NCBI GenBank assembly: GCA_015296075.1
Contig: DVDV01000375.1
Span: 1 to 64,000, forward strand
Length of the DNA stretch: 64,000 bases
Direction: 5' to 3'
From: Leptolyngbyaceae cyanobacterium M33_DOE_097
Lineage (GTDB): Bacteria; Cyanobacteriota; Cyanobacteriia; Leptolyngbyales; Leptolyngbyaceae
Shown here: positions 20,467 to 44,780 of the stretch, piece by piece
Position numbering within the stretch: the stretch's first letter is position 1
How the letters are laid out: every line of letters starts with the position of its first letter
Position numbers and translations under genes: made by a program
The notes under the pieces: generated by a model
What the model saw: the letters and a program-made list of their open reading frames with translations, nothing else
Databases searched by the model: none
Told to the model about the DNA's origin: nothing

Positions 20467-20992
20467 TCCACTCAAAAAAGCTTTTTCTTGAGTCAACTCA
20501 GTTCGAGCCAGCAAACCTTGGGAGCGTTGCCCCCACCCCCACGAGAAAACGCTTCCCCTCGCCTCGCCTCCAGAAGGTTGTGGTATGTAGGGTTTGACAA
20601 AAGGGGAGACAGGTAGAGTAGGAACCCTACTGCGCAGGCTTAAACAACATCTCGCCTGCTGCACAAAAAACAATTCGACATCTCAGACCGCTGTTACCAC
20701 GGCGATCGCCTTCGTAACCTCCGCCTCACGTCACCCGTCCCTCTATCAGCGATCGAAGTGCGGATCTTGTTACCCTCAAACTCTGGATAGCTGACCATTC
20801 AACACTCACTGACAACACCTTGCGGGGGTCGTAGGGGAGTGAGTCCCCTACACAGCGGGGGCGCGGGGGGAAGTCCCCCGATCTGGCGGCTCCGCCGCCC
20901 CCAAAATCATCACTGCACCCCGTAAACCAAATGACTTTGGTTGATAGAAATGTTGTGGTTGAGATAAAACAAACAGCCCTAAGTTCTATCAA
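20467..20992. other. Repeat-rich spacer with a cluster of G/C hairpins
   Basis: No credible gene. Three adjacent hairpins stand out: GTAGGGGA/TCCCCTAC (20831-20851), CGGGGGG AAGT CCCCCG (20864-20880) and GGCGGC TCC GCCGCC (20885-20899). The region is much richer in G and C than its flanks and resembles a pile-up of extragenic palindromic repeats. Confidence 0.6.
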
Positions 20993-21142
20993 CTGGAGTT
21001 TGAACTAATTCAAAAAATACACCATGTTTAGGAGAGGCGCTAGCGCAGCCCTAGCGAAGCCATGCCAAAGGCTATTGCCACAAGGCTATACGGCTGTTCG
21101 CCCTTACATATAGTGGAAAATCGCGTTTAGTCTAAAGTCCAA
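20993..21142 (+). mobile_element. MITE family A, copy 1, with an internal insertion
   Basis: Terminal inverted repeats CTGGAGTTTGAACTAA and TTAGTCTAAAGTCCAA, flanked on both sides by TATCAA (20987-20992 and 21143-21148), a likely target duplication. The 150-base element matches the 101- and 100-base copies at 29527 and 44681 except for about 50 extra bases in the middle, near 21035-21089, that contain GCGCTAGCGCAGCCCTAGCG. It has no coding capacity. Confidence 0.82.
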
Positions 21143-21158
21143 TATCAACCTAAAACCG

Positions 21159-28323: not shown

Positions 28324-29406
28324 ATGTCTGACGAAGCGACAAACACAGAACCAGGAAGCGAGCCAAACGCCCAATTTGCTGAACTGTTGCAGTCACTTCG
28401 GCGGAAGCAAGGAAATTGGGTAGAGTGGGGTCAAGCCTGTCAAACACTGCAAAAAGCAGGATATAACCCTCAAGCAATTTTTGAAGAGACGGGGTTTGAG
28501 CCGATTCACCAAAATCAGGTGATTGTTGGCTCTCAAGTTTTTCTCAGTATTTCAAGCGCAGGCTTGTCTGAGGCAGCCAAAACGCACTTCACCCAGCGGG
28601 GCAGTGATGTTTTGTATGAGTTGCGGGTCTTAAACCAGGCTGAACGGGTTGCTTTAGCCGAGATGGCTGCTGCCAAGCAACTCAATCTTGAAGAAGCGCG
28701 CGATATCGCTAAGGCCATGAAAGAGCTATCGCTGTTGCGGCAGGTGCCCGAAGGGTTTAGCACCCATCCCGGTGACGCGATCGCCTACCAATCCTGGAAG
28801 CTGGCTCGTCAACAGGCCGACTTGCAAGAGCGATCGCGCCTGATTGCCAAAGGGTTACGTTACGCCGAAACAGCCTCTGCTCGTAAGCAAATTGAGCTAC
28901 TGTTAACCGACTTTACTGTTGCAACCGCGGCGATCGCCCCACGTTTGCCGCTCTACCGCTTAGACGAAGCCGAGCAAATGCCCCGTGTGCTGCCCGTTGT
29001 TGGCAAGCTACCTTTTACAAAAGCGGATTTGCAAGCGGTGCCCATCGTCGAAGAGGTTGCGCCTTTCAATCTCGTCACGTTTTCAGGCACAGGAGCCTGG
29101 GTTGCGATTCCGGGTTGGCAGGTGATTTTGAGTGCGGAAGACCCCGTGGTTGCCCTGGTGCAAAGTGACCAACTGCCGACCCCCTTACCGGGGACACCCC
29201 AAGAAGTGTTGTTAGTAATTGATCGCGCTCAACGTGAATGGGCGGGCGATCGCTACTTTTTGGTTGAGCAGGGTGAGCAACTCACCGTTCAATGGTTTGA
29301 GCAATCTCCCAATGTGCCCTTGCTGGGTCAAGTCGTTCTCGTTCTACGTCCCAAAAAGGTGCTTGACGAGGAGTACACCAAAGAACTCTGGCAGATTGAC
29401 GAATAA
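28324..29406 (+). CDS. raf1: RuBisCO accumulation factor 1
   Basis: Assembly chaperone that holds folded RbcL dimers and brings them together into the RbcL8 core before RbcS binds. The 360-residue protein has the N-terminal helical domain (LLQSLRRKQGNWVEWGQACQ, then NPQAIFEETGFEP), a flexible linker, and the C-terminal beta dimerisation domain with PLYRLDEAEQMPRVLPVVG. Length and order match cyanobacterial Raf1. The Rubisco genes are not in this window. It is monocistronic with its own terminator. Confidence 0.93.
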   Translation: MSDEATNTEPGSEPNAQFAELLQSLRRKQGNWVEWGQACQTLQKAGYNPQAIFEETGFEPIHQNQVIVGSQVFLSISSAGLSEAAKTHFTQRGSDVLYELRVLNQAERVALAEMAAAKQLNLEEARDIAKAMKELSLLRQVPEGFSTHPGDAIAYQSWKLARQQADLQERSRLIAKGLRYAETASARKQIELLLTDFTVATAAIAPRLPLYRLDEAEQMPRVLPVVGKLPFTKADLQAVPIVEEVAPFNLVTFSGTGAWVAIPGWQVILSAEDPVVALVQSDQLPTPLPGTPQEVLLVIDRAQREWAGDRYFLVEQGEQLTVQWFEQSPNVPLLGQVVLVLRPKKVLDEEYTKELWQIDE

Positions 29407-29425
29407 TCCTTTCTTGAAACAAGAA

Positions 29426-29455
29426 ACTCCGAAGCTATTACACTTCGGAGTCTTA
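29426..29455 (+). terminator. Terminator of raf1
   Basis: Perfect 9-bp stem ACTCCGAAG / CTTCGGAGT with an eight-base loop, followed by a T-rich tail. Confidence 0.85.
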
Positions 29456-29526
29456 TTTGCAGAAACCGAATGAGGGCCTAACTCGGTCTAGTAAGACTAA
29501 CAAGTTGTTTAGACTTTTCTATAGAT

Positions 29527-29627
29527 CTGGAGTTTAGACTAATTCCAAAAATACACCCCATTTAGGAGGGGCAAACGGCTGTGTGCCCTTACATAGAGTG
29601 GAAAATTGCGTTTAGTCTAAAGTCCAA
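29527..29627 (+). mobile_element. MITE family A, copy 2
   Basis: 101 bases with terminal inverted repeats CTGGAGTTTAGACTAA and TTAGTCTAAAGTCCAA (14 of 16 paired). TATAGAT flanks both sides (29520-29526 and 29628-29634), a likely 7-base target duplication. The centre carries GGGGCAAACGGC...GCCC, a short hairpin. There is no open frame. Confidence 0.85.
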
Positions 29628-29704
29628 TATAGATAGTGGGTTGAAGCAATTAGATTGCACCTTTGACACTACCCAAGCTTCACTTTAGGCCAAGCTCTCA
29701 GCCA

Positions 29705-29887
29705 CTAGCGAAACTTGATGTAAGGCGTACCTCGGTACGATAATCGAACAACTGAGTTAGGGACTGTGACTGACTCTGAATCACTCAGCCGCCAGCGATC
29801 GCGTTGTTTAAGTAAGTTTAAATCGTTGGATGGCTCATCGGGTGGGGGCGTAGAGTCGTAGGCAATGCCTCGATAAATGAATCTCAT
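29705..29887 (-). CDS. DUF4278-type small protein
   Basis: A 60-residue protein beginning MRFIYRGIAYDSTPPP and ending VVRLSYRGTPYIKFR. The YRGxxY motif at both ends is typical of the small DUF4278 proteins common in cyanobacteria, whose role is unknown. The start at 29887 is supported by AAGGAGC about eight bases upstream; a longer frame to 29950 has no such signal. It is the leftmost of four similar frames on the same strand (30001, 30240 and 30460). Confidence 0.75.
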   Translation of the reverse strand: MRFIYRGIAYDSTPPPDEPSNDLNLLKQRDRWRLSDSESVTVPNSVVRLSYRGTPYIKFR

Positions 29888-30000
29888 TTTTTGGGGCTCC
29901 TTAAAAAATTTATGGCAGTCAGAACAGGATGTGTAGAACAGATTGAGCAATAGAGCTTGAGCAACAGATTCACTTGGGGCTAGTCAAGTGAAGACTGACG

Positions 30001-30187
30001 TTAGTGAAGCTGCACGCAAGGATCACCACGTTGGAACTGCTTAATAAAGGTTTGACCAATGCCACTTTTCGTAGGCTGGCTCAAACGGATCGCTGCACCT
30101 CGGTGGCATCCAATTTTGGGATGCTCTCGTACCTCTAAAGTAGTTGGCGCAGCTTGATAGTTAATACCGCGATAGGCTTAATTTCAT
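30001..30187 (-). pseudogene. DUF4278-type gene broken by a frameshift
   Basis: After a good GGAGG site, ATG at 30187 opens MKLS and then stops within nine codons. Removing one C at about 30175-30176 restores YRGINYQAAPTTLEV, a GCHRGAAI middle and a C-terminal FQRGDPCVQLH, ending at TAA 30001-30003. This matches the layout of the intact neighbours. Either the gene is dead by a one-base insertion or the sequence has an error; no start exists in the shifted frame. Confidence 0.7.
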
Positions 30188-30239
30188 AGTCCTCCATTGG
30201 GATGAGTGAATCGATTTGGGCAAGCAGCGAGTCAAACGA

Positions 30240-30407
30240 TTAACGCAAATAGGAAGCACCGCAATACAAAAAATCTGCATCAAACGACAATTCACTAGAA
30301 ATTGATGCATTTAGCAACTTAAACCAGCGTGATTGTAGGTTTGCTTGGTCTTGTTTTGCTGGTTGAGATTTAGTTGTTTTGGAGTTGATGGTTTTGGGAA
30401 GGATCAT
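30240..30407 (-). CDS. Small protein in the DUF4278 array, divergent
   Basis: A 55-codon frame, MILPKTINSKTTKSQP at the start and FLYCGASYLR at the end, preceded by AGGA. The last residues echo the C-terminal YRGxxY of its neighbours, but the N-terminal YRG unit is missing. It may be a decayed or strongly diverged member of the family. Confidence 0.4.
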   Translation of the reverse strand: MILPKTINSKTTKSQPAKQDQANLQSRWFKLLNASISSELSFDADFLYCGASYLR

Positions 30408-30459
30408 TAGTCTTATTCCTGCAAATCTAAGAGATCAAACAATGAATCTTTAAAAGCAA

Positions 30460-30639
30460 CTAGCGGCGATAATTAATACCACGGTAAGACAGACGAACAG
30501 ATGGATCAGCGGAACTCAATGGTTGAGGTTGGGAAAAGTACACCTTAACACCTCGATAATGACCACTAATTTCTTGTAGTTCCGTTGCTGCGACGTTGTT
30601 AACAGCAGCATAACGCTGACCGCGATAAGTGAGATTCAT
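30460..30639 (-). CDS. DUF4278-type small protein
   Basis: A 59-residue protein starting MNLTYRGQRYAAV, with a middle GHYRGVKVYF and ending RLSYRGINYRR, so all three motif positions of the family are intact. AAAAGGAG lies about nine bases before the ATG. It is the first of the four-frame array when read on the minus strand, 52 bases before the next one. Function unknown. Confidence 0.78.
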   Translation of the reverse strand: MNLTYRGQRYAAVNNVAATELQEISGHYRGVKVYFSQPQPLSSADPSVRLSYRGINYRR

Positions 30640-31044
30640 TTTCGGAACTCCTTTTGTTTAAGGGCTTACATAATTCATAATGCCTGTCTTTTTTCCTTTG
30701 CGATGTGATAGTTAGGTACCTCAAAAGGTGAGTTGTCGCAGCTTGTCAATTGATCCAAACCCGACCCATGAGTGAGCCATTTCGCTATCAATGGGGAATA
30801 GAAATCACATCAGCTTCAGTGTGAGATCACACGCCAAAGTGGCACAACAAACCCAAGTGAGTCTGATTGTGGGTTGTGATAGCAATTGATGTTGACCGGA
30901 TACCTGCCGTTAAAAGACCCAATTTCTGCATAGAAAAGGCGATCGCATGACTTCGGTTAGCCTTTCACAGTAGACACTACTGAAGCTTAGACCGAGACAA
31001 TGCGCAGTTTTCAAACAGTTAACAGAGCTGCAACTCAACGTTTG
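30640..31044. other. Spacer upstream of the DUF4278 array
   Basis: 405 bases with no credible gene. It should hold the promoter of the leftward small-gene array and the 3' end of the membrane protein at 31045. One HIP1-like site is near 30940. I see no terminator or RNA fold. Confidence 0.4.
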
Positions 31045-31356
31045 CTAGCGCTGACGCCGACGCACCGCATAACGTTGGCTGATTCGTCTACCTGCCAGGT
31101 CAAAAATTCTGCCGATCACAAACGTGTAGATAAAGGAGAAGAGAATTGCGAGGAGCAGAATCAACCCGAAAAAAACAACACGGAAAACTCCGTTATCTGT
31201 GTTTAGAATTTTGAGAAGGCCATATGCAATAAATGCGGTCGTCAAAAAGGCAGCCGCGATCGCGCCGACACTGTGCAAACAGGCAACCACAACTGCAAAT
31301 GTCCTCTGCCCCAAGATTTTGCGAGGCCGTGTAGCAAACTCTCTTGGCTCAGTCAT
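31045..31356 (-). CDS. Small two-helix membrane protein, function unknown
   Basis: A 103-residue protein with two hydrophobic spans, about residues 20-48 and 58-86, and a very basic C-terminus (RRISQRYAVRRRQR). The N-terminal MTEPREFATRPRKILG is charged. I recognise no family. It lies on the same strand as, and upstream of, the DUF4278 array, separated by about 400 bases, so a shared transcript is not evident. Confidence 0.6.
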   Translation of the reverse strand: MTEPREFATRPRKILGQRTFAVVVACLHSVGAIAAAFLTTAFIAYGLLKILNTDNGVFRVVFFGLILLLAILFSFIYTFVIGRIFDLAGRRISQRYAVRRRQR

Positions 31357-31437: not shown

Positions 31438-32478
31438 ATGACTTCTCAAACGCATACCCAACTTCCTATCCCTAGTTTTTTTGAAGCACAACGCGTGGGT
31501 GAAGTTTGGCGGGTGCCTTACCAGATGCGGGCTGAGCAGGCAAAGGCATGGGCAAAAGAATACGCGATCGCACCCGCCGCACAGGATCAAACGCGGATTT
31601 GCTTGCTGCTGATCGATGTGCAAAACACCTTTTGTCTACCCGATTTTGAGTTGTTTGTCGGGGGTCGCTCTGGCCTGGAAGCCGTTGCAGATAATCAGCG
31701 GTTGTGTGCGTTTATCTACCGCAACTTGCCACTGATCACGAGCATTGTTCCCACACTGGACACGCACACGGCGATGCAAATCTTTCATCCCATTTTTTGG
31801 GTAGATGCGGCAGGAGCGAATCCCGCGCCGATGACGATGATTCAGCTGGAGGAAGTTATCTCTGGGCAATGGCACGTCAACCCGGCGATCGCTCCCAGCC
31901 TGGGAATTGCTGACGACACGTTGCAGACCTATGCCCTGCACTACGCCAAACAACTCAGTCAGGATGGCAAATATCCCCTCACGATCTGGCCTTACCACTC
32001 GATGTTAGGCGGCATTGGGCACGCCCTCGTTGCAGCTGTCGAAGAAGCCTGCTTTTTCCACGCGATCGCGCGTCAAACAGCAACCCAGTTTGAACTCAAG
32101 GGCAGCAATCCCCTGACGGAAAACTACTCGGTGCTGCGTCCTGAAGTGCTGGTGGATGCAGGGGGGCGAGCGATCGCGCAGAAGAATGAGTCCTTGATTC
32201 AAACGTTACTCGCCTTTGATGCAGTGATTATTGCAGGGCAGGCCAAGAGTCACTGCGTCGCCTGGACAATTGATGATCTGCTCACAGAAATTCAAGCGCA
32301 AGATCCAGCTCTCGCGCAAAAAGTGTATTTGCTGGAAGATTGCACGTCTCCGGTTGTTGTGCCAGGAGTAGTTGACTTTACTGAGTCAGCTGATGCAGCC
32401 TTTCAGCGATTTGCCCAGGCTGGAATGCACCTCGTCCAATCGGGCGATCGCATGGATGACTGGCTTCATCTTAGATAA
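31438..32478 (+). CDS. Isochorismatase-like cysteine hydrolase
   Basis: A 346-residue enzyme of the isochorismatase/nicotinamidase family. The catalytic Asp lies in LLLIDVQNTFC, and the nucleophile Cys in GQAKSHCVAWTIDDL; the central TIWPYHSMLGG fits the metal or substrate loop seen in nicotinamidases. It is longer than typical members (about 180-220 residues), with an N-terminal extension and inserts. The substrate is unknown. Start at ATG 31438 (MTSQTHTQL); a TTG 36 bases upstream is possible. It stands alone. Confidence 0.82.
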   Translation: MTSQTHTQLPIPSFFEAQRVGEVWRVPYQMRAEQAKAWAKEYAIAPAAQDQTRICLLLIDVQNTFCLPDFELFVGGRSGLEAVADNQRLCAFIYRNLPLITSIVPTLDTHTAMQIFHPIFWVDAAGANPAPMTMIQLEEVISGQWHVNPAIAPSLGIADDTLQTYALHYAKQLSQDGKYPLTIWPYHSMLGGIGHALVAAVEEACFFHAIARQTATQFELKGSNPLTENYSVLRPEVLVDAGGRAIAQKNESLIQTLLAFDAVIIAGQAKSHCVAWTIDDLLTEIQAQDPALAQKVYLLEDCTSPVVVPGVVDFTESADAAFQRFAQAGMHLVQSGDRMDDWLHLR

Positions 32479-44680: not shown

Positions 44681-44780
44681 CTGGAGTTTAGACTAATCCA
44701 AAAAATACGTCACATTTAGAGGTGCAAACAGCCGTTCGCCCTTACGTATAGTGGAAAAGTGCATTTAGTCTAAAGTCCAA
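44681..44780 (+). mobile_element. MITE family A, copy 3
   Basis: 100 bases with ends CTGGAGTTTAGACTAA and TTAGTCTAAAGTCCAA. By eye it is about 85 percent identical to copy 2 at 29527. No obvious target duplication remains. It lies between the thymidylate-synthase-like gene and a hydrolase gene. Confidence 0.85.

Follow-up and report, generated by a model that had tools for sequence, protein, structure and literature searches.

The DUF4278 array and its neighbourhood

The window, i.e., the whole 64-kb stretch of DNA that was analysed, belongs to contig C154 of a 6.96 Mb cyanobacterial genome in 437 contigs. Four small frames lie between raf1 and a 103-aa frame, all on the minus strand, at the positions and in the single direction that an earlier note on this DNA had given. 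The features of the locus, in order of position, are:

28324-29406, plus strand: raf1 (Rubisco accumulation factor 1), from a Pfam search
29424-29453: terminator-like hairpin with a 12-pair stem on the minus strand, separating the array from raf1, which converges on it, from a consensus scan
29705-29887, minus strand: last gene of the array, an intact 60-aa DUF4278 protein with motifs 1 and 3, ending in IKFR (Pfam 29.2 bits, scored on the frame 29705-29950)
30001-30187, minus strand: DUF4278 pseudogene, referred to as the 30001 copy (26.6 bits over profile positions 5-41)
30240-30407, minus strand: 55-aa frame, a candidate divergent or decayed relative recognised by its tail FLYCGASYLR, motifs 1 and 2 being absent
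30460-30639, minus strand: head gene, intact and coding for a DUF4278 protein of 59 aa that has YRG motifs 1 to 3 (Pfam 54.0 bits)
30677-30775, minus strand: iteron promoter of the head gene, from the sequence
31045-31356: small 103-aa frame resembling a membrane protein

The hairpin at 29424-29453 is weak evidence when taken alone, because the consensus scan returned 3 sites against 1.8 expected in shuffles. The Pfam cut-off for DUF4278 (PF14105), 25.3 bits, is passed by three of the four frames, i.e., the head gene, the last gene and, as a partial match, the 30001 copy, and the length and motif layout of the passing frames agree with PF14105. A profile built from relatives, run unfiltered and with stop codons translated as X, recovered the same three domains and no further remnants. 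A plain Shine-Dalgarno sequence is found a few bases 5' of the ATG of the head gene (AAAAGGAG), the last gene and the 30001 copy, but not of the 30240 frame. Three of the frames thus belong to the DUF4278 family at a level that chance comes nowhere near explaining, and the fourth probably belongs to it as well. The genome-wide profile search that the earlier note had called for confirmed the family in these three frames and found 17 copies above the cut-off in the genome, including the three in the array, while an 18th DUF4278 stretch shares its frame with one of the 17.

An imperfect, MITE-like inverted repeat of ~100 bp is found in the window at 29515-29640, 44681-44780 and 20984-21145 and has 44 matches in the genome, with one copy ~190 bp past a DUF4278 gene on contig C11. 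The inverted repeat at 29528-29626, considered as a part of the array, was rejected as it belongs to this interspersed repeat. Similarly, no link between the array and raf1 is claimed: a DUF4278 gene lies near raf1 in one other genome (G006) and at none of the other 19 of the 20 raf1 loci scanned.

A conserved pair and two middle frames

At the heart of the array are two conserved DUF4278 genes, its core, accompanied by two decayed or divergent copies. The core consists of the head and last genes, the two frames that the earlier note had called intact. The last gene lacks motif 2, and its true start is probably the ATG at 29887 and not the TTG at 29950, since AAGGAG lies just upstream of the former. 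In a genome of the same genus (G001), locus L140 carries two tandem DUF4278 genes ~100 bp apart, the first being the ortholog of the head gene (49% identity) and the second that of the last gene (about 42% identity). The second gene likewise lacks motif 2 and ends in RFR where the last gene of the array ends in KFR. Comparison with the orthologs gave a dN of 0.55 and a dS of 2.41 for the head gene, and a dN of 0.5 with saturated dS for the last gene, figures that are only an indication of purifying selection because the sequences are short and divergent. The G001 pair occupies a different site with different surroundings, on a contig separate from raf1, and no counterpart of the two middle frames lies between its genes. 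The comparison with a sister strain that the earlier note had proposed therefore shows the intact pair to be kept and the middle frames to be without counterpart. In the same way, the rapid change it suggested applies only to the two middle frames, which are decayed or divergent, and not to the intact pair, which is conserved in G001 with dN well below dS.

The 30001 copy starts at an ATG (30187) that is preceded by the Shine-Dalgarno sequence GGAG and is out of frame with the domain, as expected from the frameshift described earlier. The DUF4278 frame itself runs from about 30174 to 30004, immediately preceded by a stop, and retains motif 1, a weakened or altered motif 2 and no motif 3. Taken together, its sequence marks the 30001 copy as a pseudogene. 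The YRGxxY-type end said to be shared by all four frames is thus missing from the 30001 copy, in which the third motif is absent.

The 30240 frame had been described as lacking its first motif, and it lacks the second as well. Neither Pfam DUF4278 nor the profile built from relatives matches it, and a search of 96 other genomes gave nothing at E < 0.01 (best 0.017), so that its tie to DUF4278 is solely the C-terminal tail. Among 7157 distinct ORFs in the collected loci, each 35 aa or longer, 43 finish with this tail, written as [LIVFM].Y.G..Y followed by 0-5 residues, and by inspection only one of the 43 (L074) falls outside DUF4278, the 30240 frame itself and two further loci, L217 and L218. 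The latter are micro-genes of the same genome with tails like that of the 30240 frame, and they carry the TCAC-iteron promoter described below. Within the window, a looser form of the tail occurs in 3 of 534 ORFs, all in the array. With some doubt, the 30240 frame may therefore be regarded as a divergent or decayed DUF4278 copy. The local duplication with decay proposed in the earlier note accordingly holds, with three DUF4278 frames, one of them broken, and one divergent or decayed frame.

For the head protein, AlphaFold2 gave a model of low confidence (mean pLDDT 61, pTM 0.22), which places the RG of each motif at the turn of one of three hairpins. No relative was found among solved structures.

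A phased iteron promoter upstream of the head gene

Nothing else in the locus tells as much as the iterons of the promoter, on which the earlier note is silent. Upstream of the head gene, TCAC repeats are found at 30775-30772, 30731-30728 and 30708-30705, with a TCA(A) at 30753-30751, giving offsets of 22, 22 and 23 bp, and a -10 box, CATTAT, lies at 30682-30677. A composite pattern, TCACN{18,19}TCACN{21,24}AYKAT, has a single match in the window (30677-30731) and none in 100 shuffles, and it is found 16 times in the own genome compared with once for a reversed control. As the iteron promoter has no -35 hexamer, a scan with the sigma-70 consensus returned no promoter on the minus strand. The TCAC-iteron regulon is defined here by at least two TCAC words spaced 22-23 bp apart, a -10 box 22-23 bp past the last repeat and a tiny gene downstream, all of which are present at the array.

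Across DUF4278 genes, TCAC pairs at 22-23 bp precede 15 of 51 short but 0 of 28 long frames, whereas 200 rounds of shuffled upstream regions averaged 0.35 and never exceeded 4. This test is not independent, because it uses the sequences that first drew attention to the motif; the composite-pattern counts above and those that follow are independent of it. A stricter pattern, applied to 58 genomes, gave 161 matches versus 28 for the control, and part of the 161 we take, by sequence, to be 23S rRNA. Among the relatives' matches listed, leaving out those of the 23S rRNA type and those of the own genome, the last gap is 22 in 78 of 112 and 21 in 34 of 112, both gaps being allowed by the pattern. 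From these 112, 40 sites were chosen by hand according to the matched strings and not the DNA further upstream, and 51 of the 56 further TCAC words upstream of them lie at 22-23, 44-45 or 66-68 bp. This 22-bp phasing was not created by the selection, since the pattern did not require upstream TCAC words. The promoter alignment comprises 43 sites, drawn from the 40 chosen sites and earlier loci. The second genes of tandem pairs lack the iteron promoter in the upstream regions scanned, including that of the last gene of the array, and this absence fits an operon.

Other upstream words were also seen among short DUF4278 genes. Some of those without TCAC iterons (L035, L059, L040 and L056) have the word TGACATTTA in common, and two genomes (G057 and G006, loci L038, L052, L060 and L125) have a different word around AAAGTTAAG and AACTTTTC. 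A near-constant GGAGAAAGCCCCC lies immediately 5' of the ATG of many short DUF4278 genes (e.g., L007, L008, L009 and L035), and GTAAGCCC follows the -10 box in several promoters.

Genes behind the promoter elsewhere

Half of the 16 matches in the own genome precede DUF4278 head genes (C11, C88, C116, C154, C326, C380, C393 and C435) and five precede other tiny genes. These comprise a 90-aa frame (C16), a tandem run of four genes from the 43-aa RHQLRY...RNRIDFW family on C246 (array at L216, 1501-2400), a single gene of the 43-aa type (C391) and tail-type genes (C252 and C290). The first of the four C246 genes is divergent, and this array parallels that of the window. No evident micro-gene lies behind the remaining three matches (C177, C243 and C425). 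Among the collected loci, 15 distinct DUF4278 head genes with the promoter were found in eight genomes, eight of them in the own genome and seven elsewhere.

In relatives, the products of the tiny genes behind the promoter include forms of DUF4278 and YRG proteins that carry RAINWRYQ-type repeats, of which G013 has four nearly alike. Others are short MQRSSEFPLF-type membrane peptides, whose genes stand in tandem at L265 and L276, and peptides with KWEKVDGKLSCKW or RWEVVNGKLVCKW forms at their ends. Larger proteins are also found, as the promoter lies at least 130 bp upstream of a conserved ~465-aa protein at L271, L272 and L285, the first 90 residues of which have no convincing Pfam match, and precedes a 713-aa protein at L274. 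Some of the relatives' sites precede nothing clear. The micro-proteins other than DUF4278 received no convincing Pfam or NCBIfam name, and four micro-proteins searched in plasmids gave no match.

DUF4278, IF17 and the glutamine riboswitch

In the literature searched, DUF4278 appears mainly in connection with glutamine riboswitches and IF17. As described in PMC6316151, DUF4278 forms the N-terminal half of IF17 (gifB), a glutamine-synthetase inactivating factor, and aids its stability and the strength of inhibition, while the IF7-like C-terminal half holds the arginine whose loss matters most. The array resembles IF17 in this DUF4278 module but differs from it in three respects. Since the array proteins end 1-4 residues past the domain, the IF7-like part with the key arginine is missing. 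Between 27000 and 33000, a search for the glutamine riboswitch (RF01739) came up empty even with a permissive threshold, and no other known Rfam leader was found at the array. Finally, a site resembling that of NtcA, the core of which is GTAN8TAC, is absent near the array, the nearest of five exact matches in the window being at 32368.

Among the 150 DUF4278 matches listed from 58 genomes, the riboswitch lies at most 350 bp upstream, on the same strand, in at least 57 of the 74 long frames and at least 16 of the 76 short ones. At least 71 of the 90 riboswitches in these genomes precede a DUF4278 frame among the matches listed, and in the own genome 3 of the 17 copies have one upstream. The counts therefore point to a long, IF17-like class with the riboswitch and a short class mostly without it. 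The array resembles the small PF14105 proteins in that three of its frames score above the family cut-off and differs from them in its unmatched fourth frame, in the last gene without the middle motif and in a head gene with an iteron promoter in place of the riboswitch.

A comparable tandem is found in another genome (G046), where L144 (3600-4470) carries three DUF4278 micro-genes. Both loci are local tandems of DUF4278 micro-genes, yet each G046 gene has its own glutamine riboswitch, whereas the array has one iteron promoter at its head. At L141 and L150, short DUF4278 genes adjoin tRNA genes.

As to distribution, a scan of named genomes with A3 gave four loci, in Leptolyngbyaceae and an unclassified cyanobacterium, all in metagenome genomes, and the same kind of scan with the head protein gave no match. 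The head protein was likewise without match in viral contigs, phages or plasmids, as were the A2 and A3 profiles in viral contigs. An IF17-like query found one DUF4278 on a plasmid, in Acaryochloris, and none in phages.

Proposed mechanism and alternative readings

We hold with reasonable confidence that the array probably encodes small regulatory DUF4278 proteins, expressed as an operon from one leftward promoter within an activator-controlled micro-protein regulon. For this reading we infer activator binding to the repeats, a single transcript, binding of protein partners and an inducing condition. The promoter at 30677-30775 would drive leftward transcription of the whole array, although co-transcription is not certain, because a 572-bp gap separates the head gene from the last gene, for which no promoter of its own was seen. 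An activator would recognise the TCAC repeats, which recur every two helical turns (22-23 bp), and bring RNA polymerase to the -10 box CATTAT, the -35 position being that of the last repeat. As the last TCAC sits at the -35 place and the repeats are two turns apart, the activator units would be expected on one face of the DNA beside the polymerase. Functional proteins would come from the head and last genes, and the middle frames would be surplus copies, of which one is broken and the other divergent. The operon would be one member of a genome-wide micro-protein regulon with a common promoter and members that are sometimes tandemly duplicated. By analogy with the DUF4278 half of IF17 in glutamine-synthetase inactivation, the proteins may act as small binding partners, and we read DUF4278 as a row of short partner-binding hairpins, i.e., beta-hairpin units that would dock on, stabilise or tune another protein. 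The trigger would not be glutamine acting through a riboswitch.

The TCAC repeats could instead be the site of a described cyanobacterial regulator and the regulon a known one under another name, which we consider unlikely. In favour of it, the promoters of the MQRSSEFPLF type (ten loci) contain TC(C/A)GGA-like words just past the last TCAC, resembling the DIF1 motif TCCGGA, which depends on HetZ in Anabaena according to PMC7377430. Both kinds of promoter occur in filamentous cyanobacteria and place a short element close to -35, and one micro-gene family that shares the iterons has the TCCGGA-like words. However, no such words occur in the DUF4278 promoters tested, which have phased TCAC repeats, and the resemblance to HetZ/DIF1, seen at the level of short words, is a lead only. 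Nor do the motifs of RpaB (KTTACAWW-N2-KTTACAWW), RppA and Rre1 (GTNCGGK), as given in PMC13421787, or the J-box of SigJ (GGGaAtacT; PMC6495340) fit the repeats, and the sources searched, mostly outside subscription journals, held nothing fitting on a TCAC motif. A second reading, that the array is mostly genetic debris in which 30460 is the one useful gene and its duplicates decay without function, seems decidedly improbable. The frameshift and lost motif 3 of the 30001 copy, the isolation of the 30240 frame in profile and relative searches and the interspersed repeat in the surroundings would all suit it. Yet, G001 has a conserved ortholog of the last gene, with the tandem order kept, and the last gene shows a good Shine-Dalgarno sequence and a dN of about half a substitution per site against saturated dS. 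The two middle frames could still be debris.

It could also be argued that the array proteins inactivate glutamine synthetase in the manner of IF17 (gifB) and are produced under nitrogen-rich conditions, as the Pfam domain is common to the array and the N-terminal half of IF17 (PMC6316151) and the riboswitch accompanies other DUF4278 genes of this genome and, in the counts above, most long and some short frames. The lack of a riboswitch, a GTAN8TAC core and an IF7-like part at the array makes this very doubtful. A toxin-antitoxin or phage-defence locus, which genes that are tiny, tandem, multi-copy and unevenly spread among genomes might bring to mind, is barely credible: none of the four frames matches PADLOC, the window's ORF list holds no toxin-like partner gene, and the head protein is absent from the phages and plasmids searched. 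Of the roles suggested in the earlier note, toxin-antitoxin thus found no support, and neither did adhesion, while that of regulatory small proteins stands in a broad sense, because DUF4278 makes up IF17's N-terminal half (PMC6316151).

Implications for DUF4278 and cyanobacterial micro-proteins

The preferred reading, small regulatory proteins under an iteron promoter, extends to the other genes behind that promoter. On balance, it appears likely that they form an undescribed regulon of filamentous cyanobacteria, composed of largely unannotated micro-proteins of unrelated families under one activator that would bind the TCAC iterons at 22 bp, with DUF4278 placed in two circuits, the glutamine riboswitch and the TCAC iteron. 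The families would include DUF4278 and its YRG...RAINWRYQ variants, the ~50-aa MQRSSEFPLF membrane peptides, the 43-aa RHQLRY...RNRIDFW proteins and the WEVVNGKLVCKW peptides. No description of such a promoter or micro-protein regulon was found in the literature searched, mostly outside subscription journals. The promoter offers a handle that predicts and groups tiny genes missed by annotation and could serve as bait for the regulator. If true, a riboswitch-free DUF4278 set under a common iteron promoter would make DUF4278 a general small-protein module, with a reach beyond nitrogen control.
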